A stretch of 32,526 nucleotides of DNA, from contig JAUWIX010000015.1 in the NCBI GenBank assembly GCA_030608005.1, positions 1-32,526 of the forward strand. The letters run 5' to 3'. Made by a program: the position numbers and the translations under genes. The notes under the pieces are model-generated. The model searched no databases. It saw only the letters and a program-made list of their open reading frames with translations, and was not told where the DNA came from. Of the stretch, positions 210-31,021 are shown piece by piece; positions within the stretch are counted from its first letter, which is position 1, and every line of letters starts with the position of its first letter. This stretch comes from Dehalococcoidia bacterium. GTDB taxonomy: Bacteria > Chloroflexota > Dehalococcoidia > Dehalococcoidales > BS750m-G39.

Positions 210-226
210 TAACTACAAATCAACCG

Positions 227-255: not shown

Positions 256-260
256 TTGAC

Positions 261-289
261 TTGACTTTGTAACCCATAGCGGTTATAGT
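261..289 (+). promoter_or_regulatory. Sigma70-type promoter driving the rightward operon (zinc-ribbon protein onward)
   Basis: TTGACT (261-266), 17-bp spacer, TATAGT (284-289); divergent from the rpsO promoter. Confidence 0.5.
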
Positions 290-440
290 AAGCACTGTAG
301 TTGATACCTTGGTTTAGTGTCGTTTCTAAGCTTGACCCCGTATATGCCGGGAATCTTCTATAGCAGTTGGGCAAAGGGTTTTGGAGCCAGGAGACTGCAT
401 TGAAGACAAGGGGCTAACAAAATATATTGGAGGTGCAGTA

Positions 441-734
441 ATGGCTCTGGTAGACAAGACCCTGGTGTGCCGTGATTGTGGGCAGGAGTTCATTTTTACC
501 ACCGGTGAGCAGGAGTTCTATTTATCTCACGGGTTGCAAAATGAACCCAGTCGATGTCCGGAGTGCCGAGCTGCTCGGCGGAGAGACCGCTTGGGTAGCT
601 ATGACCGGCCACGACAGACGTATACTGTAATATGTGCTGGCTGTGGGGTGGAAACCACAGTTCCTTTTGAGCCCAAGGAAGGGCGACCGGTCTATTGCAG
701 AGAGTGCTACGCTAAGCAGAGAAAATCTGACTAA
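441..734 (+). CDS. Small zinc-ribbon protein (two CxxC pairs)
   Basis: MALVDKTLVCRDCGQEF...CPEC...CAGCG...CREC; GGAGGT RBS at 429-434 supports start at 441 rather than the ORF-track start at 381. Confidence 0.8.
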   Translation: MALVDKTLVCRDCGQEFIFTTGEQEFYLSHGLQNEPSRCPECRAARRRDRLGSYDRPRQTYTVICAGCGVETTVPFEPKEGRPVYCRECYAKQRKSD

Positions 735-767
735 GTTTTTGATTTATCTGGTTACCAACTATATATC

Positions 768-1061
768 ATGAGTGTCGGTGTCTGTCGGGTTAAGCTTCGC
801 TTTCCGGAGAACCTGTCGCTCAAGGGTAAGCGGCAGATATTGAAATCCATTACCGCCCGTCTCAGAAACAAGTTCAATGTCTCCGTGGCTGAGGTTGACG
901 ATCAGGAATTATGGCAGTTGGCTACTCTGGGGATTTGTTGCGTTAGCAATAATAACCGATATACTAATGAAGTCCTGTCCAAGGCGGTGGACTTTATTAT
1001 TAGTGGTCGCTTAGATGTAGAGATACTCGACTATGAAATTGAGATTCTGCCTGTTTCCTGA
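768..1061 (+). CDS. DUF503 (YlxP-like) family protein
   Basis: Length 97 aa; 'GVCRVKLRFPENLSLKGKRQILKSITARLRNKFNVSVAEVDDQELWQ' matches the DUF503 pattern. Confidence 0.85.
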   Translation: MSVGVCRVKLRFPENLSLKGKRQILKSITARLRNKFNVSVAEVDDQELWQLATLGICCVSNNNRYTNEVLSKAVDFIISGRLDVEILDYEIEILPVS

Positions 1062-1072
1062 CAAGGGCTATA

Positions 1073-3367
1073 ATGGATACCTCAGCCTTTCTTCGTCATC
1101 TTGCGGCTCAACCCACTTACAGCGCTCAGATAGCTCACATAGAGCATATTCCGCGCCGTGAAGCGAAATGTGCTCAGTTGGACCAGCCTCTGGTAGCGAG
1201 CCTTCAGGATTGTCTCAGTGAACATGGGTTATTACCCCTTTATACCCATCAAGCGGAAGCCATAAATTATGCCCGGCAGGGCAGGAATGTGATGGTGGCT
1301 ACCTCGTCTGCCAGTGGCAAGACCCTATGCTATAACGCCCCGGTTATGGAGGCAATCTTAACTGAACGGGGTAGTTGTGCCCTTTACCTTTTCCCAACCA
1401 AAGCCCTGGCTCAGGACCAGCTACGCGGTTTACGGGAATTATTTTACCCCGACCTATTCCAGATAGGGGAGGTTGCTACTTTTGATGGTGATACCCCTCA
1501 GGTGGAGCGGGCTGAGACAAGGAAACGAGCCAGGGTGATACTTACCAATCCAGATATGCTCCATATTGGCATACTGCCAAATCATCAACAATGGTCAAGG
1601 CTGCTACGCCACTTGAGGTATGTAGTAGTAGATGAAGCCCATACCTATCGTGGTGTTTTTGGCTCCCACGTAGCTTGTGTCATTCGTCGCCTGCGCCGTC
1701 TTTGTCAGCTTTATGGCTCAAATCCCCAATTCATTTGCTGCTCGGCTACTATAGCCAACCCTGGGGAGCATGCGGAAAGGCTGGTAGGTTTACCCTTTAA
1801 GGTAGTTGATAATGATGGTTCTCCCTATGGGGGGAAGGAATTTGTCTTCTGGAATCCTCCAATCATAGATGAGGCTAAGAGTGTTCGGCGTAGTGCTAAT
1901 AGTGAAGCGGCAAACCTTTTTACCGAGTTGGTGAGCCATAATATCCGCAGTCTGACCTTTGCTCGCACCCGTCGGCTGACTGAGCTTATTTATAACTACA
2001 CCAGACGGAGGCTAGCTGAAATCAGCTCTGCCCTGACCAAGAAAATCAAGGCTTATCGGGCTGGCTATCTACCAGAGGAACGGCGTCAAATAGAGCAGGA
2101 GCTATTCGGCGGTCAGCTTCTAGGTGTGGTAGCTACTAGTGCTCTGGAGCTGGGCATAGACATCGGTGACCTGGAGGCTACAGTGCTCACTGGCTATCCG
2201 GGAAGCATTGCCAGCGCCTGGCAGCAGGCGGGGAGAAGTGGACGAGGTAGAGATAAATCTATAAGTTTTCTTATCGCTCTGGATAATCCCCTTGACCAGT
2301 ATTTTATGCGCCACCCCGACTCATTTTTTGGTAAAAGCTTTGAGAACGCTCTGGTTAACCCTGATAACCCCTATATTTTGAGAACCCATCTCCTATGTGC
2401 TGCCTGGGAGTTGCCCCTAAGCAGCGATGACGAGAAGGTCTTTGGCTCCGCCTTGAACTGGGAAAGGACAGGGCTGGAGAGACAGGGTTTGCTTAGGCAG
2501 CGCAGGGGCAAATGGTATCTTTCACCTGCGATTGCCTATCCCGCTCAGGGCATAAATATTCGTTCCATCTCTGGGGAAAACTTTACCATTATTGATACTT
2601 CAACTGGCTCCTTACTGGAAACCATTGAGGCAAGTGTTGCTTTTTCTCAAATACATCCCGGTGCTATCTACCTCCATCAGGGGGAATCCTATCTAGTCAA
2701 TGAACTTGACCTGGCTGACCGCACTGCCTATGCCATGCCGACCCCCGCCACTTACTATACCCAGGCTAAGGAAATCACTGACCTTCATATTGTCAGGGTA
2801 GTGCGGGATAAAAGCTGCCCACAGACCAGGGTATACTTGGGCGAGGTTGAGGTTACTACTAGGGTAGTTGGTTTCAAGAAGAAGGCGCAATTCACTGAGG
2901 AGATAATTGGGGAGGAGTTCCTTGACCTGCCACCGCAGCATTTCCCCACCGTTGCCCTATGGTTTGACCTGCCACCTGAGGTGGTGGCTCGACTGGTTGA
3001 TGCGCAACTGGACTTCGCTGGCGGGCTGCACGCTGCCGAGCATGCTGCTATTGGCATTCTTCCCTTATTTGCCCTTTGCGACCGCAATGATATTGGGGGC
3101 GTATCTACCCTCTTCCACCCTGATACTGGGAGGGCGCAGATATTTATCTATGACGCCTATCCCGGTGGCATTGGTATTGCCGAGAAGGGCTTTGACCTGG
3201 TGGAGGAATTATGGCAGACTACGCTGAAGGCAATCGCTGAATGCCCGTGTCAAGAGGGCTGCCCTAGTTGTATCCAGTCGCCCAAGTGTGGTAATAATAA
3301 TAAACCGCTGGATAAAAAGGCAGCCCAGTTGCTGCTTGAAGGGTTGCTATCTAAAAGAATAGATTGA
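1073..3367 (+). CDS. DEAD/DEAH-box helicase with C-terminal DUF1998 Zn-binding domain (MrfA/YprA-like)
   Basis: Walker A-like 'TSSASGKT', 'DEAH', 'CSATIANP', 'QQAGRSGRGRD' motifs; C-terminal 'CPCQEGCPSCIQSPKCGNNN' cysteine cluster. Confidence 0.88.
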   Translation: MDTSAFLRHLAAQPTYSAQIAHIEHIPRREAKCAQLDQPLVASLQDCLSEHGLLPLYTHQAEAINYARQGRNVMVATSSASGKTLCYNAPVMEAILTERGSCALYLFPTKALAQDQLRGLRELFYPDLFQIGEVATFDGDTPQVERAETRKRARVILTNPDMLHIGILPNHQQWSRLLRHLRYVVVDEAHTYRGVFGSHVACVIRRLRRLCQLYGSNPQFICCSATIANPGEHAERLVGLPFKVVDNDGSPYGGKEFVFWNPPIIDEAKSVRRSANSEAANLFTELVSHNIRSLTFARTRRLTELIYNYTRRRLAEISSALTKKIKAYRAGYLPEERRQIEQELFGGQLLGVVATSALELGIDIGDLEATVLTGYPGSIASAWQQAGRSGRGRDKSISFLIALDNPLDQYFMRHPDSFFGKSFENALVNPDNPYILRTHLLCAAWELPLSSDDEKVFGSALNWERTGLERQGLLRQRRGKWYLSPAIAYPAQGINIRSISGENFTIIDTSTGSLLETIEASVAFSQIHPGAIYLHQGESYLVNELDLADRTAYAMPTPATYYTQAKEITDLHIVRVVRDKSCPQTRVYLGEVEVTTRVVGFKKKAQFTEEIIGEEFLDLPPQHFPTVALWFDLPPEVVARLVDAQLDFAGGLHAAEHAAIGILPLFALCDRNDIGGVSTLFHPDTGRAQIFIYDAYPGGIGIAEKGFDLVEELWQTTLKAIAECPCQEGCPSCIQSPKCGNNNKPLDKKAAQLLLEGLLSKRID

Positions 3368-3377
3368 GGGAGTTTGA

Positions 3378-3556
3378 GGGGGGCTGAGCCCCCCCTACAC
3401 CTTTTATATCTTTTCCCACCCCCCGCCCTCAAGGGGTGGGAAGGAGTGAAATAGAGGAAGTCCAAGAGGGACGAAGTCTCTCATCAGGGGTAGATTGAAG
3501 GGGCGGAGCCCCTTCAAAAACAAATTCTTCCCCTTCCCCTTGTAAGGGGAAGGGGA
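3378..3556. repeat. Intergenic cluster of four GC-rich perfect hairpins
   Basis: GGGGGGC-tga-GCCCCCC (3378-3394); TTCCCACCCC...GGGGTGGGAA (3413-3442); TTGAAGGGGC-gga-GCCCCTTCAA (3495-3517); TCCCCTTCCCCTT-gt-AAGGGGAAGGGGA (3529-3556). Confidence 0.85.
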
Positions 3557-3570
3557 TAAAGGGGATAGGG

Positions 3571-4476
3571 TTGACTGGTAATCTAATTGAACAAGGGTTG
3601 AAGCGCAGTCGTGATACCTGGTTTAGCCGGGTAACCCACCTGTTTGACCGCACCGCTATAGATGAGGCGGTATGGGCTGAGCTGGAGGAACTGCTTATTT
3701 CTGCCGATGTGGGGGTTGATACCACGGAGAAGCTTATTGAAAAGGTGAGGCGAAGAGTAAAAGAGGAGAAGATTGGCCAGGGGACAGTGGTGTGCGCTGC
3801 CTTGAAGGCAGAAATGGTCAACATCCTAAAAATTGATGTTCACGGAACGTCTATCCCCCTATCATTGCCCAGGGTTATTCTGGTAGTAGGAGTCAATGGC
3901 TGTGGTAAGACTACATCTATTGCTAAGCTTGCCTATAGGCTGAAAAACGAGGGTAAGAGGGTGATACTGGTTGCGGCTGATACCTTTAGGGCGGCGGCTA
4001 TTGACCAGCTCAAAAGCCTGAGCGAGAAGATTGGTGTTGATGTCATTGCTCACCAGCCCGGGGCTGATGCTGGGGCGGTAGTCTTTGACGCCCTGGAGGC
4101 AGCGCGGAGTAGAAACGCTCAGGAGTTAATTATTGACACTGCCGGTAGGCTGCACACCAAGTTTAACCTGATGGAGGAGCTTAAAAAGGTCAGGCGGGTG
4201 GCAGCCAAGGCTGATGCCACAGCGCCACATGAGGTGCTCTTGGTGCTTGATGCTACTACAGGTCAGAACGGCTTAACCCAGGCCAGATATTTCACTGAAG
4301 CTGTAGGGGTAACCGGCATTTTTCTGGCTAAGCTGGATGGCACAGCTAAAGGGGGTATAGTGCTGGCTATCTGCGATGAACTGAAAATACCAATCCTGTT
4401 CATCGGTGTTGGTGATGGGTTGGAGGATATGGCTCCTTTTGATGCTGAGACCTTCGTCGAGGCGCTATGCTCCTGA
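3571..4476 (+). CDS. ftsY: Signal recognition particle receptor FtsY (TTG start)
   Basis: NG-domain motifs 'GVNGCGKTTSIAKLA', 'DTFRAAAIDQL', 'DTAGRLHTK', 'AKLDGTAKGG'. Confidence 0.92.
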   Translation: MTGNLIEQGLKRSRDTWFSRVTHLFDRTAIDEAVWAELEELLISADVGVDTTEKLIEKVRRRVKEEKIGQGTVVCAALKAEMVNILKIDVHGTSIPLSLPRVILVVGVNGCGKTTSIAKLAYRLKNEGKRVILVAADTFRAAAIDQLKSLSEKIGVDVIAHQPGADAGAVVFDALEAARSRNAQELIIDTAGRLHTKFNLMEELKKVRRVAAKADATAPHEVLLVLDATTGQNGLTQARYFTEAVGVTGIFLAKLDGTAKGGIVLAICDELKIPILFIGVGDGLEDMAPFDAETFVEALCS

Positions 4477-4492
4477 CTTTTGGAGGTGAATA

Positions 4493-5278
4493 TTGCTCAC
4501 CATAAGTATAGACCCAATAGCCTTCACCATAGGGTCGATAAGCGTTAGGTGGTATGGCATTATGGTTGCCCTGGCGGTGTTGGTGGTAGTTTTGTGGATG
4601 CTGCGAGAGGTAAGACGGGGGGCTAATCTTTCCTATGATACCATTCTTACCGCAGCTCTGGTAGGCATTCCATCCGCGGTAATAATATCAAAGTTGCTCC
4701 ATGTTATTGACAGATTTGATTTTTATATTCAAAACCCGGGGCAGATTTTTGGTTTTGAAGGTTTGACTATCTATGGTGCTATTTTAGGCGCTGTCCTGGG
4801 TATCTGGATTTACAGCAAGTTTAGCAATTTCCAATTTGGCTATTTTGCCGATTTGGTGGCACCGAGTGTCATACTGGCTCAGGCTGTAGGCAGGGTGGGC
4901 TGCACCATAAATGGCTGCTGCTATGGCGTAGAAGCGCCAGCTTGGCTACCTTGGTCTGTGGTCTATACTCAACCTGAGAGCTATGCTCCTCTGGGGGTAG
5001 CCCTTCACCCCACCCAGCTTTATGAGATTATATTTTGTTTGATAGTCTTTGGCGTATTGCTCAGGTTGAGGGGTCATTTTAAGCCTGATGGCTCTCTGTT
5101 TCTAATCTACCTTGGTCTATACTCATTGTGGCGGGTTGGCATTGGCTTTCTGCGGGACGGGACACCCTTCCTCTTTGGCTTACATCAGGCTCAGCTAATA
5201 GGCATAATCGTATTAGCCATCGCCATCCCTTTGCTAGTTCTGAAGACACGGTGGGTTGAAAAAGAGGCCAGTAGCTAA
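4493..5278 (+). CDS. lgt: Prolipoprotein diacylglyceryl transferase (TTG start)
   Basis: Membrane protein with 'RWYGIMVA', 'GRVGCTINGCCYG', 'HPTQLYE' signatures. Confidence 0.92.
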   Translation: MLTISIDPIAFTIGSISVRWYGIMVALAVLVVVLWMLREVRRGANLSYDTILTAALVGIPSAVIISKLLHVIDRFDFYIQNPGQIFGFEGLTIYGAILGAVLGIWIYSKFSNFQFGYFADLVAPSVILAQAVGRVGCTINGCCYGVEAPAWLPWSVVYTQPESYAPLGVALHPTQLYEIIFCLIVFGVLLRLRGHFKPDGSLFLIYLGLYSLWRVGIGFLRDGTPFLFGLHQAQLIGIIVLAIAIPLLVLKTRWVEKEASS

Positions 5279-5901
5279 TGGACTGGGGAAATATTATTGG
5301 CACCATAGCTGCCCTTCTGGTGGCTATTTTATGGCTGCTGGCGTTAAAGAAGAGGAAGAAGGGTAGCCTCAGGAAAATAGAGCAACTCCTTCAACACCTC
5401 CAGGGAATAGGGGTCAGAGTGTCTCTGCTGGAAAAAGATGTTGAGCAGGGAAAGGTGGGAGTGAGTCATGCTTCGGGGCAAAGGTCTGAGGGTGTTATTC
5501 AAATAGCGGGAAGGAATATAGACTACATCAATGTCACCAGTGTCGCCAGCCAATATGGAGTCCGTTATTTTGTTGATTATTTGGTGAGGAGTCCTGGCTG
5601 GATAGGCGAAAAGAAAAGAAAGAAAACCAGGATGGTAAGAAAGAAAAGCTCGGCTCTCCGGGGCAAGGCGGTCGATATCCAGTGGAAGGGGGATGATTAC
5701 CTAGCCCAGGGACTCAACTATGATTATCGGCTGAAAGATAAGCTATTACAAGCCGAGCTTGATAAGCTCAAGGGTAGTATTTGGATTTTCCCTGAGCCGA
5801 AGTATGAATATGCCAGGGTCAGGACTTCTTACCTTCTGCCCTCATCTGATTTGTTTGAGGCAATAGATATTATTGCTGGACATATCAGGTCGGGGTGGTA
5901 G
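5278..5901 (+). CDS. Hypothetical protein with one N-terminal TM segment
   Basis: Start overlaps lgt stop as TAATG; N-terminal hydrophobic segment then basic stretch KKRKKG. Confidence 0.6.
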   Translation: MDWGNIIGTIAALLVAILWLLALKKRKKGSLRKIEQLLQHLQGIGVRVSLLEKDVEQGKVGVSHASGQRSEGVIQIAGRNIDYINVTSVASQYGVRYFVDYLVRSPGWIGEKKRKKTRMVRKKSSALRGKAVDIQWKGDDYLAQGLNYDYRLKDKLLQAELDKLKGSIWIFPEPKYEYARVRTSYLLPSSDLFEAIDIIAGHIRSGW

Positions 5902-8892: not shown

Positions 8893-9756
8893 TTAGCCCC
8901 GGCGCCCTTTCCCACCGCGCCTGTATTCCATCTTAGCCCGTTGACTAGACCGTCTATCACTCCGATAGTCAGGGGCAATGATAGGAAATACCATACTGAT
9001 ACGGGGGTCTATGAAGCGGGAGCTGATGGGGTCGTCAATCTCATCCAGTGCTAGGCGGGTAGTGATTACCGTTGCCAATCGGGCATTATAGCGATAGTTG
9101 ATAACCTGATAAAGCTTTTCCTGCGCCCAAGGGGTGGTTGACTGCTCACCAAAGTCGTCTAAGATGAGCAATAGTGCATTCTTTACCTCTTCAAAGAGCT
9201 GGTCATAGGACACCCTGCTCTCAGGGCTGAAGGTGAAGCGCAGATGGTCAAGAAAGTCAGGCACCACCTCAAATTTGACTGGCTTTCCGGCTCGGAGGCA
9301 GTAATTAGCAATGGCTGCTGCCAGGTGGGTTTTACCACAGCCGGTAACACCCTGTAATACCAGCCAGCCATCGGGTGATTTGGCGAAGTCAAGGGCTAAG
9401 CGGAATGCCTGCTCCAGGTTCTGGCGCTGTTCCGGCAGCAGATTAACACGCCTCCAGTCAAAATTATCAAAGGTCATGCTTCTAAGTAACTCTAGGTCAA
9501 GACCACTATATCGTTGCAGGCGGGTTTGGCGCTCTTTATCCAATTCTTTCTGGGTGCAGCGGCAGGCAATAACCCGGCCGAAATCCGGCTTGCCTGATGG
9601 TAGCCGAGGATGAACAAATCCCGCCCCCTTACAGATAGGGCAGACTGAACTTGGTGAGGCCTCTTCTGTTTCTTCAGCGCCAGACCATGTGTCCATATTT
9701 GCCCTTAAAGTATTTATCTGGGCTTGTCTTCTTAAAATCTCCCCTATATGTTCCAT
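8893..9756 (-). CDS. DnaC/DnaI-like helicase loader ATPase
   Basis: N-terminal Cys motif 'CPICKGAGFV...CRC', Walker A 'GVTGCGKTHLAAAIANY', Walker B 'LLILDDFG'. Confidence 0.85.
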   Translation of the reverse strand: MEHIGEILRRQAQINTLRANMDTWSGAEETEEASPSSVCPICKGAGFVHPRLPSGKPDFGRVIACRCTQKELDKERQTRLQRYSGLDLELLRSMTFDNFDWRRVNLLPEQRQNLEQAFRLALDFAKSPDGWLVLQGVTGCGKTHLAAAIANYCLRAGKPVKFEVVPDFLDHLRFTFSPESRVSYDQLFEEVKNALLLILDDFGEQSTTPWAQEKLYQVINYRYNARLATVITTRLALDEIDDPISSRFIDPRISMVFPIIAPDYRSDRRSSQRAKMEYRRGGKGRRG

Positions 9757-10387
9757 TGCCCTTACCTTCTGCTGACCAGCGCTCTAAAATCGCTAAAATA
9801 TAGCTAATTTTGCGTTTGTTTTGGTTAACCGCTTCTTTGATAGCATCTCTTATCCAAGTTTGGGGGTAGAGCTTCTCGGCATCACGCAGCTCATCGGCAA
9901 TCATTGGGGTTAGCATACCGATGTTCTGTTCATAAAGGGTGAAGATGTCAGGTTGCTCCTCAGTCTCAATATAGGTTGGTTCTTTTGCTTTCAGTCCACT
10001 CAAGCTGAGCTCGCCATTTTGAATTTTAGCCATAATCTGTCTGTCAGACTCAGTATTGAGAAAATAGATGTCCTCGGGCGTTCCATCCCTATCTAATACC
10101 ATATGAAGGATGGTACCCCGCTTGGTAGCCATTTCCAGGGTGTGGTGTAATACCTTGTCTGGCGCTCTTGCTGTCCCCTTGAGACTGCTCATCAGGCTCT
10201 TATTGCCCAATAGCTCTCTGTAGGTAATAAAGCGGGGATAGCCCCGCTTGCGGTAAAGTGCCCAGAAGATGTGGAGGGTTGTTTTCAGCTCAGCGATATC
10301 ACTGATTTGTGGTAGCAATGTGCTGAACAAAAGATTGGGCAGGGGGGTAAACTGCATCTTGGCTGGGAAACCGGCGAACTGTTTCAT
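9674..10387 (-). CDS. DnaD-like replication initiation protein
   Basis: 'IFTLYEQNIGMLTPMIADELRDAEKLYPQTWIRDAIKEAVNQNKRKISYILAILERW' is a DnaD-domain pattern; sits between dnaB and the loader. Confidence 0.8.
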   Translation of the reverse strand: MKQFAGFPAKMQFTPLPNLLFSTLLPQISDIAELKTTLHIFWALYRKRGYPRFITYRELLGNKSLMSSLKGTARAPDKVLHHTLEMATKRGTILHMVLDRDGTPEDIYFLNTESDRQIMAKIQNGELSLSGLKAKEPTYIETEEQPDIFTLYEQNIGMLTPMIADELRDAEKLYPQTWIRDAIKEAVNQNKRKISYILAILERWSAEGKGNGTYRGDFKKTSPDKYFKGKYGHMVWR

Positions 10388-11760
10388 AATAGAGTTAGCT
10401 CTTCGTTGGTAATATTGGCGAACTTAGCCATCCTGGGTTTAAACAGCAACTTGATTTCACCAGTAGGACCGTTACGGTGCTTGGCAATTATGATTTCAGT
10501 CGGCGGCGGGTAGCTTTCACCCGGGTGTTCCTTTTCCCACTCCTCTTTGGTGTAATAGACCTCGTCTCGATAGATAAACATAACCACGTCGGCATCCTGT
10601 TCAATGCTGCCGCTTTCTCTCAGGTCGGATAGTTGAGGCCTATGTGAAGCCCTCCACTCCACAGCTCGGCTGAGCTGCGATACCGCCAGCACTGGCACAT
10701 TGAGCTCGCGAGCTAATGCCTTAAGGGAACGGGAGATATAGCTAACCTCCTGGACACGGCTTTCCCCTCTGCCATCCCCCTGCATTAGCTGTAGGTAATC
10801 AACAATAATCAGGTTGATGCCGCGCTCAAAGTGCAGGCGGCGGGCTTTGCTTCGCATCTCTACCACCCGCAGTTGAGGGGTATCATCAATATAGATTGGT
10901 GCTTCAGAAAGCCTGCCGATGGCATCCATAATCCTTTTTTCCTGCTCTTCAGTGTGAAGCCCGAGGCGAACCCGCCTGGAATCAACTTCAGATTCGCTAG
11001 CCAGCAGGCGCAAGACCAATGGCTCCCGCGCCATCTCCAGGGTGAACAAAGCCACACAAGCCCCTTGCTCCACGGCGGCATTCCTGGCGAGGCTGAGAGC
11101 AAGACTTGTTTTGCCCAGGCTGGGTCTGCCGGCAATGATACACAGGTCAGAGCGCTGAAATCCGCCTAGGAATTCATCTAGACCAGCAAAACCTGACAGC
11201 ACATAGGGTATTGGCTCCCTGAGTTGACCTTCTGCCTCTGTGGCGGGAGCGGTGGTTTCAAAATACTTGTCTAGCACCTGGCGAATATGGATGAAGTCTC
11301 GTGGGCTTTGCCCGTGACGCAGTCTAAACAGGATATCCTCAGCTCGACTAAGGCTGGCATCAACATCTGGGTCAGCCTGATAACCAATATTGGCAATTTG
11401 CCCGGCGGCATCGATGAGGTGGCGCATTACCGATAGGCGATAAACAATTTGAGCATGATGCTCAATATCAAGAGAGGTTGGGCATATAGATATTAGGTGA
11501 CTTAAATAGGCAGCGCCGCCACAGGCCTCCAATTTCTCTCTTCGGTCAAGCTCTTGAGCCACTGTGATTTGGTCTATCGATTCATCGCGCTGGTAGAGTG
11601 ATAGGCATGCTCCATATACTAGCGAGTTTCGTTCGCTATAAAAATCTGACGGCTGAAGCAAGGTCGCAATTTTATAGATTGCTATCCCGTCTATCAGCAG
11701 CGAGCCGATTACCGCTTCTTCAGCATCAATATCATGCGGCGGCAATTTCTCGCTATACAT
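10384..11760 (-). CDS. dnaB: Replicative DNA helicase DnaB
   Basis: 'PPHDIDAEEAVIGSLL', Walker A 'GRPSLGKTSLALSLA', 'IIVDYLQLMQ', 'SQLSRAVE'. Confidence 0.95.
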   Translation of the reverse strand: MYSEKLPPHDIDAEEAVIGSLLIDGIAIYKIATLLQPSDFYSERNSLVYGACLSLYQRDESIDQITVAQELDRREKLEACGGAAYLSHLISICPTSLDIEHHAQIVYRLSVMRHLIDAAGQIANIGYQADPDVDASLSRAEDILFRLRHGQSPRDFIHIRQVLDKYFETTAPATEAEGQLREPIPYVLSGFAGLDEFLGGFQRSDLCIIAGRPSLGKTSLALSLARNAAVEQGACVALFTLEMAREPLVLRLLASESEVDSRRVRLGLHTEEQEKRIMDAIGRLSEAPIYIDDTPQLRVVEMRSKARRLHFERGINLIIVDYLQLMQGDGRGESRVQEVSYISRSLKALARELNVPVLAVSQLSRAVEWRASHRPQLSDLRESGSIEQDADVVMFIYRDEVYYTKEEWEKEHPGESYPPPTEIIIAKHRNGPTGEIKLLFKPRMAKFANITNEELTLL

Positions 11761-19360: not shown

Positions 19361-19436
19361 TGGTGAGCCGCACAGGACTCGAACCTGTAACCTGCTGATT
19401 AAGAGTCAGCTGCTCTTCCAATTGAGCTAGCGGCCC
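19361..19436 (-). tRNA. tRNA-Lys (anticodon CTT), 3' CCA encoded
   Basis: Reverse complement GGGCCGCTAGCTCAATTGGAAGAGCAGCTGACTCTTAATCAGCAGGTTACAGGTTCGAGTCCTGTGCGGCTCACCA: 7-bp acceptor, anticodon loop CTCTTAA, T-arm GGTTCGAGTCC. Confidence 0.93.
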
Positions 19437-19461: not shown

Positions 19462-20643
19462 TTACATCTCGGGGTCTTTTGCCGACATTTTGCCGACATT
19501 TTTCCTCCCGACCAAGTTGTCAAACTGCTCAGCAGCTCTCTCCTGTAACCCCGGCAAGACATGGCTGTAAGTATCAAGGGTAATGCCTATGTTGGCGTGC
19601 CCCAGCCTTTCACTTACTATTTTAGGGTGTACGCCGCCTTTTAGCAAGAGGGTAGCATGGGTATGCCTGAGGTCGTGAAAGCGGATATGAGGCAGCCCTG
19701 CTTTTTTAAGAACCTTAGCAAAGGTGTGGCTGACTACCCCCGGGTCAAGAGGCTTACCATCAAGATGGCTGAATACGAGGTCACTATCGGCTGGAAGCTT
19801 TCCCAGTAAGATCCTTTGTGTCTGCTGCTCGGCTTTATACTCACGCAGTAGCAGTGCCAGAGAAGGTGACAACGCTATCCGGCGCCGGCTGTGAGAGCTC
19901 TTGGGCTTTATCATCTTGCAAACCCGGGAGCGCTTATACAACGCCTGGACTACAGAAAGAGAAGCCATATCAAGGTCAACATCACACCAGCGCAACCCCA
20001 GCAGCTCCCCTAAACGCATCCCAGTGTATAATGCCGTATAAAACAGCACATAGTAAGAAGTTTCACGGGCAGCTTCCAGGAATTGGGGAATGTCCTCAGG
20101 GACTAGGGTTGCCATATTCTTTTGCTCGGGGCGAGGAGGGTCTACAGCCTCAGCTACATTCCGAACCAGGATTCCCATCTTAACAGCGTGACTTAATGCC
20201 TCAGAAAGGATGCGGTGATGATACTGGACGGTTCGAGCAGAGAGACCACCTTTCCCATCAACGCGGCCCTCAGTGAGAGCTTGGCTGTAGTAGTTCTGAA
20301 GTTGCTGAGGTTGAAGCTGGGGCAGTGGTATTGCTCCTAAGGCTGGGATAAGATGACGCTTCACTTCAGACTGGTAACTTTGTGCTGTCCTCAGTGAGCA
20401 ATTTGTTGTCACGTAGCCACTAATCCAGTCCCTTAGCCACTCACCTAAAGTGACCCGGACTGGCTTGACATAGGCACCCTGCTCAAGGCTATGCAATAAC
20501 TCGTGCATCCGTTGCTGGGCTACCTTTTTGGTACCCTTAACATTCTCAAAATGTCGTAGGCGCTTACCTGTCACCGGGTCCCAGCCGGTATCGACACAAA
20601 TCTCCCAAGAACCTTTACTTCTTTGTCTAACGCTCCCTTTCAT
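19462..20643 (-). CDS. Phage-type tyrosine integrase
   Basis: 'YTALYTGMRLGELLGLRW', 'HIRFHDLRHTHATLLL', 'LGHANIGITLDTYSHV'. Start MKGSVRQRSKGSWEI at 20643 preceded by AAAGGAGA RBS (ORF track starts at 20694). Confidence 0.93.
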   Translation of the reverse strand: MKGSVRQRSKGSWEICVDTGWDPVTGKRLRHFENVKGTKKVAQQRMHELLHSLEQGAYVKPVRVTLGEWLRDWISGYVTTNCSLRTAQSYQSEVKRHLIPALGAIPLPQLQPQQLQNYYSQALTEGRVDGKGGLSARTVQYHHRILSEALSHAVKMGILVRNVAEAVDPPRPEQKNMATLVPEDIPQFLEAARETSYYVLFYTALYTGMRLGELLGLRWCDVDLDMASLSVVQALYKRSRVCKMIKPKSSHSRRRIALSPSLALLLREYKAEQQTQRILLGKLPADSDLVFSHLDGKPLDPGVVSHTFAKVLKKAGLPHIRFHDLRHTHATLLLKGGVHPKIVSERLGHANIGITLDTYSHVLPGLQERAAEQFDNLVGRKNVGKMSAKDPEM

Positions 20644-20681
20644 ACCTATCTCCTTTCTTTTGATTATTTCGTAGTCCTGAA

Positions 20682-21632
20682 TTACACCGGGCAAAGATGG
20701 CAGTGCCCAGGGAAAGCACGCATTATCTCAATGCCATCCAGGGCAGAGTCTATTTTACCAATGATGTCTTTTAGCTTCTTTTGCTTCTCCCCGTCCCTTA
20801 ATTGTGCAGTAGCAGACTCAAGCTCACTCCATTGAGGTTGTTGTTCAGCTTCTTTCAGTATGCCATCCAGGTATTCTTGTAACACCTGTCTACTGGCACT
20901 GTCTGCCGCTCGGGCAACTAGGTCCCCCGCTGGGGTTGTTAGGTCTCGCCCACTACCTATTAGCTCCTCGCCGGCGGCACCGCTCGTTAGAAGGAGAATG
21001 TTGCCACAGAGCCAATTTCGCACTAAATCCATGTATTCCGGGTCAATCTTTTGCCATCGCTCAAGCTCTGTCTTGTCGATGACCCATACAACGAGCTGCC
21101 CGCCCAGGGTTTCATAATCAGCCACTTCTTTTCGCCAGCTATCCCAGTGAACCCACAGATCCGAATCCTTGGTATGCTCCCTGAGTGCTTGTGTTAGATG
21201 TTTGACCTTTGGTAGTGGATTGTACATCCGCCCCCACTCGCTGACTGTGTATTTAGCTGAACCTGCGCCGGGCAATCCCAATCTTCCTGCTAAAGATATT
21301 GGCCCCGGTAAGCGTAGTGGCTGAAACCCCGTAGGGTAACTACTCTCAGAACGTGAAGCGTCCAAGCGCCATCTCAAGCTAACTGGCATACCGTTAGCCA
21401 GCTCTTGGAAGTGACCACGCAGCTCCTCTATTAATACCTGTTTTCTGGCTTCCTCAGCAACAATGTCCTCATGTTTCTCCCTCAGATGCATTCTCACTGT
21501 CTGACGATGGTAGCCAATAATCCGAGCTATGGCTGAAATTGACTTGCCTTCACGCTTGAGCCGCATCATCTCGGTTACCTGTTCGTCAGTGAGTCGAGCC
21601 TTTTTCGTAGGGCCTATCCCCCTTGTTGTCAT
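20682..21632 (-). CDS. Helix-turn-helix (resolvase-type) DNA-binding protein, possible element regulator
   Basis: 'LTDEQVTEMMRLKREGKSISAIARIIGYHRQTVRMHL' is an HTH; remainder uncharacterised; GGAGGT RBS upstream. Confidence 0.65.
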   Translation of the reverse strand: MTTRGIGPTKKARLTDEQVTEMMRLKREGKSISAIARIIGYHRQTVRMHLREKHEDIVAEEARKQVLIEELRGHFQELANGMPVSLRWRLDASRSESSYPTGFQPLRLPGPISLAGRLGLPGAGSAKYTVSEWGRMYNPLPKVKHLTQALREHTKDSDLWVHWDSWRKEVADYETLGGQLVVWVIDKTELERWQKIDPEYMDLVRNWLCGNILLLTSGAAGEELIGSGRDLTTPAGDLVARAADSASRQVLQEYLDGILKEAEQQPQWSELESATAQLRDGEKQKKLKDIIGKIDSALDGIEIMRAFPGHCHLCPV

Positions 21633-22390: not shown

Positions 22391-25234
22391 ATGTCCATTA
22401 GGCAAACTAATACTACAAAACTGGAAGGCAAAGGTCAAGCCCGACCCCGATTTGATTGGTCGACGCTGCGTCAGGCCATCGAGTTCTACGAGAAAGAACA
22501 TCTGTGCTACCTGCCAGCCGGCTGGGGGCACAAAAAGCCCAGCGTAAACTGGGAAGAATACCAAACCCGTCTCCCCACCATGGCAGAGAAGGCTGAGTGG
22601 TTCCATGAGGGCAGAGCCAGCAGTGTTGGCGTGCTCTGTGGTGGTGTCAGTGGTGGGCTAGTAATACTAGCTTTCAACGACCAAAACGGTGCCCGTGAAT
22701 TTTTTGGTGAAGAGCGGTGGCAAAAGTTACCTCAGGCAACTTTTATCACCAAGAGTGTCCGGGGCCATCATGTTTGGCTGCGGTCAGATACCCCGATTAA
22801 AAGCCAAAAGGTCGGCAAGGGCAAGAACGAATCCTGGCTTGAGATCCGCTCCGACGGCAATTTTACCGTGGCACCGCCTTCCCTGCACCCCTCCGGTGTC
22901 CTCTACCAAACGGTGGGTGTTGACCATATCTACAAACCCGACGACCTGGCTGGCTTTATAGCCAAGCGCCTATCCGAGCTGGGCTTAAAGGCACGGGGAA
23001 GCGAGGAAGCTCCTAGGGAGAAAGCTAAACCATCTGACAGGAAGAGGCCCGAGCGGTCGGATGAATTTAATGCGCTAGCCATCGAAAAGCTGCTGGAGTG
23101 CTGCGCTTTTATCCAGCATTGCCGGGATAACGCTGCGACTCTCTCTGAGCCACACTGGTGGCCTATGGTTCATGTTCTAGCTGTTTTTGGCGAGCCGGGA
23201 AGAAAGAAAATACACGAGTTATCACAACCGTACCCCAGGTATACTGAAAAAGAGACCGAGCAGAAAATAGAGGAAGCTCGAAAAGCAGCCGATAAAGATG
23301 TTGGCCCTCATACCTGCCTATTTATTGAGCAGGACCTCGGGTTTGATTGCCCCGAGAATTGCTTGGCCAAGAAGCTAGGCACTAAGTCCCCGGCTGGCTT
23401 GGCATCCAAGGTGGCAACTCATGCTGGCTTCAGGAACAACGGCTTGCCTGTAATAGTAGTTAACAACCGCCAATTAAGAGATATAACCAAAGACGTGCTG
23501 ACTGCTTTGTACGAAGCTAATGTTTTAAACCCGAAAATCTTCACGCGTGGGGGTAACCTAGTCCGAGTAAGCATCGATGAAAAGCAGAACCCCTACATTG
23601 ACCCACTGACCGAGTCTTCGTTACGAGGGCTACTAACTCGTGCTGCCGATTTTATTAAGGTCAACACAAACGCAAAAGGCGAGGTAGTGGAAACCAAGGT
23701 ATCGCCACCATTGGATGTGGTGCGTGATACCTTGTCTCTTAGGGGGTGGCAGCTCCCCCCACTGTTGAGCATAATAGAGGTACCGGTGATATGCTCTGAT
23801 GGTACTATAATCGATAAAATAGGCTATGATGCGAAAACCTGCTTATATTACCACCCGTCACCAGAACTCAGAGTCCCCCCGGTGCCTGATACTCCGACAG
23901 AAAGCGATGTTAAGGCAGCCAAAGCCTTACTCCTAGAGGTCATTTGTAACTTCCCATTCGATAGCGAGGCCAGTGGTGCTAATGCAGTTGCCGCTATGCT
24001 CACACCCATTGTCCGGCCCGTGATAGACGGTCTAGTGCCACTGGCTGTTTTTGATAAGCCACAGCCGGGTACTGGTGCTAGTCTCCTAGCGGACGTGATA
24101 GCATTTATTGCTACGGGGCAAACGGCGGGCATGCTCGGCGGCCAGAGGAAAGAGGAGGAGTGGCGGAAAGCCATTACTACAATCCTACTCTACGGCCGTT
24201 CTGTCATCTGCATTGATAATATTGATGGCGATCTAGACTCCACAAGCCTATCAACGGTGCTCACAGCGAGAGTCTGGCGGGACAGGATACTTGGCCGGAA
24301 TGAGGAAGTACTTCTGCCAAACATGAGCACCTGGATTGCGAATGGCAATAATATTCGTCTAGCAGGCGACCTACCCAGGCGGGCTTACCGGGCTAGGCTC
24401 GATGCACAACTGGCACAACCGTGGCTACGCCGGCCTAGTGAGTTCGCACACCCTGACCTTATTAAGTGGGTGAGGCAAAAGAGGGGCGAGATCATAGCCG
24501 CTATGTTGACTGTGGCGCGGTCTTGGGTAGTAGCAGGCAAGCCTGCGCCGCAGGCTTTAGTTACAATAGGGAGTTACGAGAGTTTCTGCGAGGTTCTCGG
24601 GGGTATCCTGAGCTTCATGGAAGTGAAGGGTTTCCTCGGAAACCTTCAGCAAATGTACTCTGAGATGGATGTGGAAACGCCACAGTGGGGGGGTTTCCTA
24701 GAAGCGTGGCAGGAGGTCTTCGGCGATTCAGGGGTCACCGTGGCAGAAGTAACCAAAAAGCTTAATGAGAATGAGGGTTTTGCTGCCGCGTTGCCCGGTA
24801 GCTTAGCTGACAAAGACGAGAAAGGCTACAATCGAAAATTGGGCGGCGCCTTGGCTAGGCGCAAGGATGTTCGCTTCCCCAACGGGTTGATGATTCAGGC
24901 GGGCGAAATCAAACACCACGCAACCGCATGGAAAATTGTGAAGGCAAAAAGCGAACTCCCCTTTTTTAGCTTCGGCGGGGAGTTAGGGGAATTGGGTCAT
25001 ACCCCACGCGAGTGCGAGGATGAAAAAGAAAATGATAAGGATAAATATATTGATAAGGAATGGGTATACCGTAACTCCCCAGACTCCCCTTTAGATACGA
25101 AAAAAGGGGAGTTAGCAAAAGGCAATCGGCCCACCACGCCTTGTCCTACCTGTGGTGGCATTGACTGGTGGCAGAGGGTAACCGGGGAGTGGGTATGTCA
25201 AAAGTGCCATCCCGACCCAAACAAAACAGGGTAA
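22391..25234 (+). CDS. Prim-pol-domain / superfamily 3-like ATPase replication protein with C-terminal zinc ribbon
   Basis: Prim-pol fold signatures 'GVLCGGVSGGLVIL', 'VRGHHVWLRSD', 'LEIRSDGNFTVAPPSLHPSG'; ATPase part 'KPQPGTGASLLADVI', 'SVICIDNIDG'; C-terminal CPTC...CQKC. Confidence 0.8.
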   Translation: MSIRQTNTTKLEGKGQARPRFDWSTLRQAIEFYEKEHLCYLPAGWGHKKPSVNWEEYQTRLPTMAEKAEWFHEGRASSVGVLCGGVSGGLVILAFNDQNGAREFFGEERWQKLPQATFITKSVRGHHVWLRSDTPIKSQKVGKGKNESWLEIRSDGNFTVAPPSLHPSGVLYQTVGVDHIYKPDDLAGFIAKRLSELGLKARGSEEAPREKAKPSDRKRPERSDEFNALAIEKLLECCAFIQHCRDNAATLSEPHWWPMVHVLAVFGEPGRKKIHELSQPYPRYTEKETEQKIEEARKAADKDVGPHTCLFIEQDLGFDCPENCLAKKLGTKSPAGLASKVATHAGFRNNGLPVIVVNNRQLRDITKDVLTALYEANVLNPKIFTRGGNLVRVSIDEKQNPYIDPLTESSLRGLLTRAADFIKVNTNAKGEVVETKVSPPLDVVRDTLSLRGWQLPPLLSIIEVPVICSDGTIIDKIGYDAKTCLYYHPSPELRVPPVPDTPTESDVKAAKALLLEVICNFPFDSEASGANAVAAMLTPIVRPVIDGLVPLAVFDKPQPGTGASLLADVIAFIATGQTAGMLGGQRKEEEWRKAITTILLYGRSVICIDNIDGDLDSTSLSTVLTARVWRDRILGRNEEVLLPNMSTWIANGNNIRLAGDLPRRAYRARLDAQLAQPWLRRPSEFAHPDLIKWVRQKRGEIIAAMLTVARSWVVAGKPAPQALVTIGSYESFCEVLGGILSFMEVKGFLGNLQQMYSEMDVETPQWGGFLEAWQEVFGDSGVTVAEVTKKLNENEGFAAALPGSLADKDEKGYNRKLGGALARRKDVRFPNGLMIQAGEIKHHATAWKIVKAKSELPFFSFGGELGELGHTPRECEDEKENDKDKYIDKEWVYRNSPDSPLDTKKGELAKGNRPTTPCPTCGGIDWWQRVTGEWVCQKCHPDPNKTG

Positions 25235-25490: not shown

Positions 25491-26132
25491 ATGACACAGG
25501 TTACCCCGATACGCGACCTAAAAGGATACCTTTCGCCTGAGGAGGTGGAGAAGGTCATTGCCGCTGCCGCCAATCCCAGGGATGCCCTGCTTGTCCGCAT
25601 CCCGTGGCGGACCGGCATCAGGGTGTCAGAGCTCATTGGCATAAATGTGTCTGACATAGACTACGAGCGCAGGGGTGTCATCATCAAGGTGCAGAAGATG
25701 CGGAAGCGGGATGGCAAAACGGTCGAAAGGAGAAGGCTCGTCCCTATTGACCAAGGTACTCTGGATATGGTGAGGCAGTATCTGGAGTGGCGAGCAGTTT
25801 TCCCGTATAAAGGGGATTTACTCTTCCCCATAACCAGGCAGAGAGTTGACCAGATTTATTGGAAATTGGGAAGGAGAGCCGGGATAAAGGAGATAGGTGA
25901 CCCGGCTATCTCCAAGCATAGGAAATTACACCCACATGTGCTAAGGCACAGCTTCGCGATCCACTGTGTGAAACATGGTATGTCAATAGAGCGATTACAG
26001 AAAATCTTGGGGCACTCAAGCCCCACGACCACTTCGGTCTATCTCCAGTTTTCGGTGGCTGACTTGCACGAGGATTATGACAGGGTATGGGAAGAAGATG
26101 AAACAAGAGAGACCAAAGAGACCAAGGATTAG
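25491..26132 (+). CDS. Short tyrosine recombinase lacking a full core-binding domain
   Basis: 'RTGIRVSELIGI', 'HPHVLRHSFAIH', 'LGHSSPTTTSVYLQF' supply R/H-R/H/Y; only 213 aa. Confidence 0.88.
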   Translation: MTQVTPIRDLKGYLSPEEVEKVIAAAANPRDALLVRIPWRTGIRVSELIGINVSDIDYERRGVIIKVQKMRKRDGKTVERRRLVPIDQGTLDMVRQYLEWRAVFPYKGDLLFPITRQRVDQIYWKLGRRAGIKEIGDPAISKHRKLHPHVLRHSFAIHCVKHGMSIERLQKILGHSSPTTTSVYLQFSVADLHEDYDRVWEEDETRETKETKD

Positions 26133-26693: not shown

Positions 26694-27290
26694 TTAAGAA
26701 CGCTGATTTCTTTTCATGAAAGCTGAATCTATTTCGTATCTTTCGTCAGCTTCCTGCCATAATTCACTAGCGTAAGTGGAATAACCATCTTTTTTGGATA
26801 CTTGAGGCCCGTGAAAGAGCCAGACTAATATACCTTCTTCTTTGGCAACCTTGAATGCGGGTAATAAATCGCTATCCCCAGCAATAACAGCTGCGTGAGT
26901 AATCTGTCGCTTCCCACTTAACAGTGCGAAATCTAATCCCAATAGCAAATCGACTCTTTTTTGCTGAAAGATTGGATTCTTATCGATATCTAGTCCCTTG
27001 AAAGCCAAGCGTCCCTCTCTCACAACAAAGCGTGGCAGTCGATTTAAGAAACTAAAAAATCCTCGCTTCTTCCCGAATCTGTTTTTTTCATCTTCGGTTG
27101 GAGGGCTGCTTTGATACGGAAGACAATCATAATAAAATGTGCGTAGTAAGTCAATGCTGTCCGGTGTCTTACTATTTACAATCAATCTAATATCTTCACT
27201 AATCAAGGAAAGGTCAAGAGAAATACCATATTCGTCTCTAGATAGAGACTCAAGATAGTGACCATCAATAAAAATTGCCAGACGTGACAT
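26694..27290 (-). CDS. NYN-domain (LabA-like/PIN-fold) putative ribonuclease
   Basis: 'MSRLAIFIDGHYLESL', 'KRVDLLLGLDFALLSG', 'HAAVIAGDSDLLPAFKVAKEEGILVWLF'. Confidence 0.85.
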   Translation of the reverse strand: MSRLAIFIDGHYLESLSRDEYGISLDLSLISEDIRLIVNSKTPDSIDLLRTFYYDCLPYQSSPPTEDEKNRFGKKRGFFSFLNRLPRFVVREGRLAFKGLDIDKNPIFQQKRVDLLLGLDFALLSGKRQITHAAVIAGDSDLLPAFKVAKEEGILVWLFHGPQVSKKDGYSTYASELWQEADERYEIDSAFMKRNQRS

Positions 27291-27302
27291 ATGCCTTAAC
27301 AT

Positions 27303-27662: not shown

Positions 27663-28406
27663 ATGATTCGTATGAGTAGAGCTCACGATGCAAAGCATAT
27701 CTTGGAAGCTTTCCCCATCGAGGACCTAAGAAGTGACCTTTTGCAATGGTGGTCTTATTCAAGGCGGCCCTTTCCATGGAGGGAAACGCGTGACCCCTAC
27801 AGGGTGCTTATTGCAGAAATATTGCTCCACAGAACTAGGGCTGACCAAGTAGTCCCGCTCTATGAGCTATTCTTGGAACGCTTTCCAGATGTCCCAGCCT
27901 TGGCAAACAGTACGCCAGATGAGCTGCTAGAATTGTTTCATTCTGCGGGGCTCCAATGGAGATGGAAACTGCTGCATGCGATGGCAGTTGACCTCGAAAG
28001 AAGATTTTGCGGACAAATACCTGACAGCTTTGAAGCCCTCAGTTCACTTCCCGGAGTAAGTCACTACATAGCTTCCGCCTTACGATGCTTCGCCTTCGCC
28101 TATCCGGAGGCCATACTGGATACTAACACGGTCAGAGTGACCGGCCGCCTTCTCGGGTTGCCGATCACTGATTCGTCTCGAAGGAGCAGGTTGTTCAGAG
28201 CTGTTCTCCAATCTCTCATAGACCCTGAACATGCGCGTGAGTTCAATTTTGCGCTGATAGATTTCGCAGCAACAATTTGCAAGGTAAAATCCCCTCTACA
28301 TTACAAATGTCCTCTTCAAGGTTATTGCTGTTTTTACAAGGCGACCATTAGTATGAATAGTGCCAACGAACATACCAGCGAAAAGAGCGGGAGTGGTGAG
28401 ATATGA
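27663..28406 (+). CDS. HhH-GPD DNA glycosylase, Mig/TDG-like (T:G mismatch) member of the EndoIII/MutY family
   Basis: 'RRPFPWRETRDPYRVLIAEILLHRTRADQVVPLYELFLERFP', HhH 'LPGVSHYIASALRCFAF', 'ILDTNTVRV', Fe-S-like 'CKVKSPLHYKCPLQGYC'. Tyr at the catalytic Lys/Ser position as in Mig.MthI-type enzymes. Confidence 0.85.
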   Translation: MIRMSRAHDAKHILEAFPIEDLRSDLLQWWSYSRRPFPWRETRDPYRVLIAEILLHRTRADQVVPLYELFLERFPDVPALANSTPDELLELFHSAGLQWRWKLLHAMAVDLERRFCGQIPDSFEALSSLPGVSHYIASALRCFAFAYPEAILDTNTVRVTGRLLGLPITDSSRRSRLFRAVLQSLIDPEHAREFNFALIDFAATICKVKSPLHYKCPLQGYCCFYKATISMNSANEHTSEKSGSGEI

Positions 28407-31021
28407 ACTGGCAGCAACTGAAGGAGTACCTCGACCGGAGCTACGATTTCTTTGACCGGATAGGTGTGGGGGGGCCTTCGAACCAGCAGAGTGAGGCAAT
28501 TCATCCAGTTTTGAAACTAAGTACCAGTCTGGCACTGAAAGCGCTATCGGACGCTAGCCACAACAGACTAGTTATCCTTCTCCCAAATCGCCTGCAGTGC
28601 GCACAGTGGATTGCTACTCTGTGTGCTCTTGAGATCGTGAAAAGGGACTACGGAAAGAGTCCTGACGGTGCAAAATTTTCTAAAGGCCAGAAACTAATGG
28701 TAAACAGATGTGTCGTGGAATACTCTGGGGAAGAGTTTATTCCTAGCCTTAATCGACGCTATATGTGGGTGGTATGCAGCAATGGAGATAGATATGGAAT
28801 TCCCTTGGACAGAAAACTAGTATTCCAGCCTGCTAACACGAATAGACCACTCTCTTCTCTGCAGAAAGTCAGTCAGGCCTGTCATTCTGCCCAAGTCGTA
28901 GATAATCAAATAGACTACATCCTCGGAATTAAAACCATGGGCAACAAAGCTCTGTTTAAAACAAACGTTCTCTTGGTTTCCAGAATTGGGGAAACCGAGC
29001 ATTTCGCCAAGGTTAACTACATAAATGGAACCAGCATCATTGATCTGTTTCTATGGGGTAAGCTAAATGTTGAAGGAGATGTCTCAATTATCGGACCCCA
29101 GCAAATACAGGCGAATCCCTGCTGTCTGGTTTCCACGGACCTTTTTGGTGTTTGGAATTACGTAAGTGATAATCCTCAGAGAAATAAAGGCGTAATCATT
29201 GATGGGTCGTCGAACTATATCAATAATGTTCAGGTTCTCGATGACATTTTGGACAAAAAAATTCCAGTCGTCGTTATATGTGACCTGCTGGAGACTGAAT
29301 ATCTTCAACTTCTGTTAGACCGGAAGTTCAAAATCTGGCAGTGGAATAGAGAGAATATTATACAGAGCGGGACAATAGTTGAGACGCGAAAGTCCTCGCC
29401 GTTTTCTTCCATTAATGATTCAATATCCAGTTTCTGCTACCAGAAAATAGACACGTTACTGTGTGAATACCCGGACCTGAATAGCGTGATCGAAGAAGCG
29501 ATGAACCTTGGCAGACTGATTTCGCGTGACCAGCAGCAGCTTAACGTTTCATATGGCAAATTGATTCAACTGATCAATGATTTCTCGCGGCTCATACGGA
29601 TTCCTCAGCAAACATGGTCAGAGACTTTCCTTCAGAAACTCCAGTTGTTACGGCAACAATTTCAATCCCAGCAGCTGTGGCTTTCAGACAAAGCCCTTCA
29701 GTGCATGAACACCATCTTTAGCATGCTCTCAGGCTTAGGAGAGAAACCATTCGCTGGGGAAAACCACAAGGCGAACAGGCTATTCGATTTTATCAGCAAG
29801 ATCCCAGAATCTGAAGCGCTAGGTATAGTCGTTGCAAAAACAGAAGAGATAGAAGAGTCTCTATCCTACTGGACAGCTTACCTTCCGGAGGAGAAGCTGA
29901 GCAGTATTCACTTTGCAACCATACACAACCTGCTTGATCCAGACAGGTCATTCGTTCCCACTCAGATCGTTATTTGTGGCTGGCTTGGCGAGGATAAAAT
30001 GTATCCCCTTCTACATTCACACATCACCTCTGAAATCACCATACTTGCGTATCCCTTTGAACAGAAATGGTTTGCATCTGCTCAGCGTAGGTGGACCCAG
30101 CAGAATAGCATTAACATTCGTGCCAAGGATTTCTTTGAGATGCTTGGACTGACAGAAAAAGAGCTTGAATCAATCGAGTACAAAGCAGAGGAACACATTG
30201 AACCCGTGAGGAAAGATGAGTTCGACATTATTGAATTTGAGTTGAAATTGAGAACATATCGGTATCAGGCTTATGCCTCTTCGGTGGGTACTCAGGATGA
30301 GGTTTCCAGAGCCAAACTCGTGATTTTCACCCAAGGCAGGTTTGCGTTTATCACCGAATCCCACCGCTTACCGGTTGTGACGGATTTGATGAAAGGAGAA
30401 ATTTCCGAGCGGGAAATCCCTCGCAGGTATATAGGTGAACTACGCCCCAGCGATTACGTTCTATTTCAGGAATCGAACAGGGATATTATACGTGAGATCG
30501 CAGATAGGGGTCTGGCTAAGGATGGGCAGCCCCATTTGAGAAAGGTCGCTGGACTCTGGAAAGAAGCCCTGCGTGAAGCGTACAGGAAAATACCGGGAGG
30601 TTCTGATGGGCTTGTTGAACTATTACGAAAGTCAGGATGCAGAAGGCACCCAGCAACCATCAAAAACTGGCTGGTCGATGAAGACCAGATTGGCCCGGGA
30701 ATCAGTACGGATCTGCAGCTCATTGCCAGAGCAACAGGTAATAAGTCATTGCTTGAAAGACTGGATAAGGTAAAAGAAGCCATCTCAAGAGTTCGAGGTG
30801 CTCATCTTCAGGCATCAACATATATAAGGAATAAATTACTGACCAGTTTACCTGAGATTGTTGAAAGTGAAAAGGGCTTACCCGATTATGGCAGTGGGTC
30901 GATGCTATTGAATTTGGATGAGTACGGTCAGGTAGCGATACTGCGAATTGAAGAGATCAGTGACGATTGGGAAGAAATTCCAATAAGTTCTGTAAACTGC
31001 TTGCTTTCGGAGGAGTATTAA
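28403..31021 (+). CDS. 872-aa DrmE-like protein (tentative; DISARM-associated family), degenerate helicase-like
   Basis: Overall size and layout, N-terminal 'HNRLVILLPNRLQCAQWIATLCALEIVKRDYG' and C-terminal 'RRHPATIKNWLVDEDQIGPGISTDLQLIARATGN...VKEAISRVRGAHLQASTYI' resemble DrmE family as I recall it. Start overlaps upstream stop (ATGA). Confidence 0.5.
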   Translation: MNWQQLKEYLDRSYDFFDRIGVGGPSNQQSEAIHPVLKLSTSLALKALSDASHNRLVILLPNRLQCAQWIATLCALEIVKRDYGKSPDGAKFSKGQKLMVNRCVVEYSGEEFIPSLNRRYMWVVCSNGDRYGIPLDRKLVFQPANTNRPLSSLQKVSQACHSAQVVDNQIDYILGIKTMGNKALFKTNVLLVSRIGETEHFAKVNYINGTSIIDLFLWGKLNVEGDVSIIGPQQIQANPCCLVSTDLFGVWNYVSDNPQRNKGVIIDGSSNYINNVQVLDDILDKKIPVVVICDLLETEYLQLLLDRKFKIWQWNRENIIQSGTIVETRKSSPFSSINDSISSFCYQKIDTLLCEYPDLNSVIEEAMNLGRLISRDQQQLNVSYGKLIQLINDFSRLIRIPQQTWSETFLQKLQLLRQQFQSQQLWLSDKALQCMNTIFSMLSGLGEKPFAGENHKANRLFDFISKIPESEALGIVVAKTEEIEESLSYWTAYLPEEKLSSIHFATIHNLLDPDRSFVPTQIVICGWLGEDKMYPLLHSHITSEITILAYPFEQKWFASAQRRWTQQNSINIRAKDFFEMLGLTEKELESIEYKAEEHIEPVRKDEFDIIEFELKLRTYRYQAYASSVGTQDEVSRAKLVIFTQGRFAFITESHRLPVVTDLMKGEISEREIPRRYIGELRPSDYVLFQESNRDIIREIADRGLAKDGQPHLRKVAGLWKEALREAYRKIPGGSDGLVELLRKSGCRRHPATIKNWLVDEDQIGPGISTDLQLIARATGNKSLLERLDKVKEAISRVRGAHLQASTYIRNKLLTSLPEIVESEKGLPDYGSGSMLLNLDEYGQVAILRIEEISDDWEEIPISSVNCLLSEEY

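Follow-up and report, generated by a model that had tools for sequence, protein, structure and literature searches.

A predicted primase-helicase family in which the Walker A lysine appears to have moved seven residues upstream

The closest described relatives of the replication protein considered here are the SF3/D5 primase-helicases, a group that includes ASFV PrimPol, the poxvirus proteins D5 and E5, the NrS-1 polymerase, SaPI5 Rep and SCCmec Cch. These are its best structural matches, they have the same layout of a primase joined to a hexameric-type ATPase, and in one relative a D5 module has even been interchanged with its own. They differ from it in sequence, with an identity of about 10-15%, and in the lysine of the Walker A motif, which has moved in the protein described here. 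Unusual placements of this lysine occur in other ATPases. MinD and ParA have a deviant Walker A motif with a signature lysine near the motif start, but they also keep the canonical lysine, and their fold class and function are different. Deviant Walker A motifs are also described for terminases (Mitchell and Rao 2004, as cited in PMC5727402). In lambda gpA, for example, the classical position is without a lysine and one is found N-terminal to it, and K57 of HK97 is required for ATPase activity and has been proposed to contact the gamma-phosphate (PMC9410871). By analogy, these terminases would be the nearest precedent, since their lysine also lies N-terminal to the classical Walker A position. 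They are, however, DNA packaging motors of a different ATPase family, and the lysine offsets differ: in HK97 the offset is 3 and both lysines coexist, whereas in the present family the offset is 7 and the two are mutually exclusive. Among the primases of mobile elements, several uncharacterised fused helicase families have been predicted, with no mention of their Walker motifs (PMC5862659).

The protein is encoded in a stretch of 32,526 nucleotides from a Dehalococcoidia bacterium (contig JAUWIX010000015.1), which is called the window below. Upstream of its gene, a tRNA-Lys gene (19361-19436) adjoins a tyrosine integrase (19462-20694), a placement consistent with an integrated element running to the contig end. 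An exact repeat of the tRNA-Lys region, as expected of an attachment site, was not found elsewhere in the window, nor was a far border of the element up to the contig end. Directly downstream of the replication gene is a second tyrosine recombinase, short and with the catalytic domain only (25491-26132). It is followed by an NYN-domain gene (26694-27302) and an HhH-GPD glycosylase-like gene (27663-28406), which adjoin the gene for a large protein with the C-terminal domain of DrmE, known from DISARM defence (28403-31021). The host's own replication block, with dnaB, a DnaD/DnaB_2-domain gene and an IstB/DnaI-like loader, is on the minus strand at 8893-11760 and adjoins the gene for ribosomal protein L9.

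The replication gene (22391-25234, plus strand) is, as the initial annotation had said, uninterrupted, and its 947 codons specify a Prim-Pol-like N-terminus, an SF3/D5-like ATPase core and a C-terminal zinc ribbon. The Prim-Pol domain (PF09250; residues 37-175, 22499-22915, plus strand) is recognised with an E-value of 5.6e-14 and a score of 53.3 bits, which passes the gathering cut-off of 22.8, and it weakly matches the structures of ORF904 from pRN1. The zinc ribbon (residues 917-940, 25139-25210, plus strand) gives weak Pfam matches below the cut-off, and a ribbon is likewise C-terminal in the D5-type relative L003/L010. Only the Prim-Pol domain scores above the cut-off in Pfam; the ATPase core is matched by none of its models, D5 and DUF5906 included. 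Direct homologues of the core are found in the phage protein families PHROG 10537, 29234 and 19930 (E 1e-48 to 1e-66, best 2.6e-66), which are mostly unannotated, one of the three being listed as a DNA polymerase/primase. The best explanation is that the window protein is a primase-helicase for the replication of an integrated mobile element.

Selection on the gene, a check that the initial annotation had proposed, was read from divergence at the three codon positions in place of dN/dS, since synonymous sites are almost saturated (79 of the 112 fourfold sites differ between the gene and L002, the nearest homologue of the ATPase core). The values of 0.31, 0.25 and 0.66 against L002 are those of a gene under purifying selection. 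Pseudogenisation was rejected, the reading frame being open, conserved and constrained.

The ATPase core was modelled with AlphaFold (model m2f89b185a6fe, residues 341-870, built from 84 homologues) at a mean pLDDT of 94.5 and a pTM of 0.90, and a homologue with the canonical lysine that was modelled alike reached a pLDDT of 95.3. In a Foldseek search of the PDB, the best matches of the window model were ASFV PrimPol, NrS-1, SaPI5 Rep, MPXV E5, vaccinia D5 and SCCmec Cch, with E-values from 4e-8 to about 5e-6; the canonical-lysine model found largely the same SF3/D5 primase-helicases. The TM-scores are modest, mostly 0.3-0.5, as expected because the relatives are distant and the domains mobile. 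A sequence search of the PDB with the family profile gave weak matches only, mostly to unrelated P-loop proteins. The predicted structure is thus an SF3-type AAA+ fold with a primase-side N-terminal domain.

The peculiarity of the protein lies in its P-loop. Positions 24056-24091, within the replication gene, translate as KPQPGTGASLLA, in which the Walker A region reads DKPQPGTGAS. The loop itself, PQPGTGAS, spans residues 557-564 (24059-24082, plus strand). The initial annotation had reported a Walker A motif without its lysine, and this is correct: PGTGAS has Ala563 (GCT, 24077-24079, plus strand) at the canonical position. It had also pointed to the proline at the first glycine, which is there but is ordinary, about half of the canonical-lysine homologues having the same. 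What it missed is that the interval it flagged opens with a compensating lysine, K556 (AAG, 24056-24058, plus strand), seven residues before the canonical site (position -7, with the canonical site as position 0) and invariant in the homologues that share the exchange, here called swapped. In the model, K556 is the last residue of strand beta-1 of the ATPase core (residues 551-556, 24041-24058, plus strand; 211-216 in the numbering of the modelled segment), and A563 is the first of helix alpha-A, so that the two flank the P-loop. The alanine is no private mutation of the window protein: it is kept in the nearest homologues, L002 and L052, which are 54% identical, as well as in phage proteins with an identity of about 30-40%. 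The swapped class has the signature KPxxGTG[AG]. As the protein fails the canonical pattern GxxxxGK[ST] and has its lysine at -7 instead, it is described as SF3/D5-like and not as a standard SF3/D5 member.

The two positions are linked throughout the family. Among the first 24 phage and plasmid homologues, those without the canonical lysine have a lysine at -7 in the context KPxxGTG[AG][ST], with one exception (L024), and canonical-lysine members have alanine or another small residue at -7. In 188 distinct homologues, the lysine is at -7 only in 28 and at the canonical site only in 159, with none having both and one having neither. The vacated site is taken by alanine or glycine in swapped homologues, and position -7 by alanine, serine, glycine or threonine in canonical ones. 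The same split was seen in 122 representatives under 72% identity. It was also seen in 135 homologues from viral contigs that had been found independently of the P-loop, by two DNA patterns well downstream of it around the TGNN sensor: 7 have the lysine at -7 and alanine at the canonical site, 128 have the canonical lysine and none at -7, and there are no exceptions (Fisher p 7e-12, a descriptive value, the sequences being related). Viral contigs searched with the window protein alone gave no match, and a search with three roseophage proteins found no relatives. When the 20 swapped representatives were compared with the canonical members of the two tree regions that they occupy, only -7 and 0 among about 400 columns separated the classes perfectly (Jensen-Shannon 1.00 each; next 0.66). 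Among the swapped members are replication proteins of large phages, and the protein of Caulobacter phage phiCbK is swapped as well.

Some members depart from the pattern in other ways. The sole homologue with neither lysine, L024 (about 4001-5416 of the Methanothrix plasmid pGP6), reads MRQSAAGTGTT, which means that some members may do without either lysine or use another residue; the arginine at -8 is a possible substitute. The residue after the canonical lysine also varies, being glycine (GKG) in many members (L035, L038, L039, L041, L057, L058, L069, L136 and others), asparagine (GKN) in L012 and aspartate (GKD) in L128; the swapped L221 reads GTGAG. These proteins, L221 likewise, are therefore without the Mg-binding serine or threonine of Walker A.

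The exchange has probably not happened once only. On trees built without the P-loop columns, the swapped label needs 8 gains or losses on a quick tree of 122 rows and 6 changes on a careful tree of 57 rows, where the bootstrap range is 5-7 and no replicate gives a single origin. Forcing all swapped rows into one clade was rejected (AU p=0.0006, log-likelihood 81 lower), and constraints with two clades, an inner and an outer set, were not (p 0.39 each). The trees thus firmly indicate at least two state changes, either two exchanges or an exchange plus a reversal, and more than two are likely but not proven, the deep nodes being weakly supported. A starred-branch paired test had 2 pairs. Each exchange needs two residue changes.

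The rest of the ATPase site is in place in both P-loop classes. E590-x-x-K593 (24158-24169, plus strand) is conserved in both. In Walker B, D609-N610 (24215-24220, plus strand), the aspartate is invariant and the asparagine present in 85-97%; it belongs to the Walker B-like VICIDNID that had been noted at the outset and is indeed there. The sensor-1-like G652-N653-N654 (24344-24352, plus strand) is conserved in both classes, the arginine-finger-like R663-R664 (24377-24382, plus strand) is Arg-Arg in 99-100% of each, and R632 is kept as well. Walker B, the sensor-1 asparagine and the arginine finger are thus all present in the window protein, their roles being assigned by position. Less conserved is G659-D660, found in about half of the swapped class vs over 90% of the canonical one.

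We infer that the protein is most likely a hexameric replicative helicase of the SF3 type that is active and uses K556 in place of the Walker A lysine, a reading that covers ATPase activity, ring formation, unwinding and the phosphate contact. The lysine that grips the phosphates would be supplied by K556, at the end of beta-1, and not by the first residue of alpha-A (A563), as if the lysine and the small residue had traded places across the P-loop. In P-loop folds in general, the amino group of the lysine lies back over the loop toward its first residues, and therefore the side chain of K556 could plausibly fill the same place, most likely reaching the beta- and gamma-phosphates in cis. That the vacated site holds a small residue agrees with K556 occupying the place of the canonical lysine. 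D609, the GNN sensor, E590/K593 and R663/R664 would then make up the remainder of a normal ATPase site within a ring.

The make-up of related proteins bears on the same question. L003 (ORF 1-2598, minus strand) has the same Prim-Pol half (68% identity) and the zinc ribbon, but its helicase slot holds D5_N/DUF5906/Pox_D5 with the canonical loop GLGNNGKST, and the comparison with the window protein reads as a clean module exchange. In L002 and L050, a swapped core is joined to Toprim-type primase domains, and the domains fused to other homologues are Prim-Pol, NrS-1-like or Gins51-like; one swapped-lysine helicase from a viral contig, L047 (ORF 2920-4959), has a C-terminal Gins51-like fusion. 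The simplest reading of a core that turns up with different primases and has been exchanged for a D5 helicase is that it works as a helicase itself. The Prim-Pol half is a different matter. Motif I of the Prim-Pol domain reads A94-F95-N96 (22670-22678, plus strand), the usual D-x-D/E being absent. It is AFN or CFN in three Prim-Pol relatives from the same taxonomic order (L003, L004 and L005), and DxD in most other alignable homologues. With this conserved loss, the Prim-Pol half may well be catalytically impaired, and the pattern suggests that the Prim-Pol domains of this lineage are inactive or altered and remain under selection. The loss is independent of the lysine exchange because L034 combines a swapped P-loop with an intact DLD. 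Of the two enzymatic centres that the initial annotation described as carrying key substitutions, the primase is indeed degenerate, in a small lineage, and in the ATPase the loss is matched by K556.

One could consider instead that the protein is an initiator that has lost hydrolysis in its core and only binds the origin or recruits the host DnaB and its loader. This is close to the initial annotation, which had envisaged a subfamily of pseudoenzyme initiators recruiting the host DnaB/DnaC machinery. The absence of the canonical lysine and the degenerate motif I in the same protein speak for it, as do the dnaB, DnaD-like and IstB/DnaI-like genes in the window, but these belong to another block, among genes typical of a chromosome. 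The subfamily does exist, and the proposed check of homologues found GTGA[ST] conserved in it; it is the pseudoenzyme that is not supported. Catalytic residues have not been lost without compensation: all swapped homologues have a lysine at exactly -7, and D609, GNN, E590/K593 and the Arg-Arg pair are kept about as strictly as in the canonical class, a pattern that repeated decay would not give. Loss of hydrolysis is quite improbable, also given that replication proteins of large phages are among the swapped members, and recruitment of the host machinery is likewise improbable in view of the SF3/D5 fold and of the D5 helicase that fills the same slot in a relative.

Alternatively, K556 could serve the neighbouring subunit in trans, as its lysine finger or sensor, with hydrolysis proceeding without a P-loop lysine in cis. 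Lysine fingers are known in SF3 helicases, such as SV40 large T antigen, and the predicted fold matches helicases that form rings. Yet K556 ends beta-1 just before its own P-loop, which is a cis location, and its strict mutual exclusion with the canonical cis lysine suggests that the two use the same space for the same function. If it were a finger, some members should have the canonical lysine as well, and this is seen in 0 of 188, leaving an action in trans very unlikely. Least probable of all is that packing or folding makes the two columns covary, neither lysine being catalytically needed in the swapped class. Canonical members do have a small residue at -7, which suggests a tight contact between the sites, but 187 of the 188 homologues have exactly one of the two lysines, though other residues would pack too, and the canonical lysine is generally essential in P-loop motors. 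In HK97 TerL, moreover, neither K60 nor the upstream K57 is dispensable (PMC9410871).

The literature searched contained neither an offset of 7, strict mutual exclusion or recurrence in a replicative helicase family, nor an exchange of the P-loop lysine for proteins of PHROG 10537, 29234 or 19930, nor biochemical work on a swapped member. No published match was found for a relocated Walker A lysine in helicases; coverage of subscription journals was poor, so novelty is unproven. Taken as a helicase with K556 in the role of the Walker A lysine, the window protein belongs to a family in which this lysine likely has two interchangeable addresses, has moved more than once and, in its relocated form, serves a fully active helicase. 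The Walker A lysine, on which almost every ATP-driven motor relies to hold ATP, ranks with the best conserved residues of all biology. Its presence is the usual test of whether a P-loop protein is active; its absence is used to call pseudoenzymes, and the lysine-to-alanine change is the standard dead mutant. A natural and recurrent relocation with the signature KPxxGTG[AG] would alter the annotation of such proteins, and the family would be a ready system for asking where the charge of a P-loop must sit.
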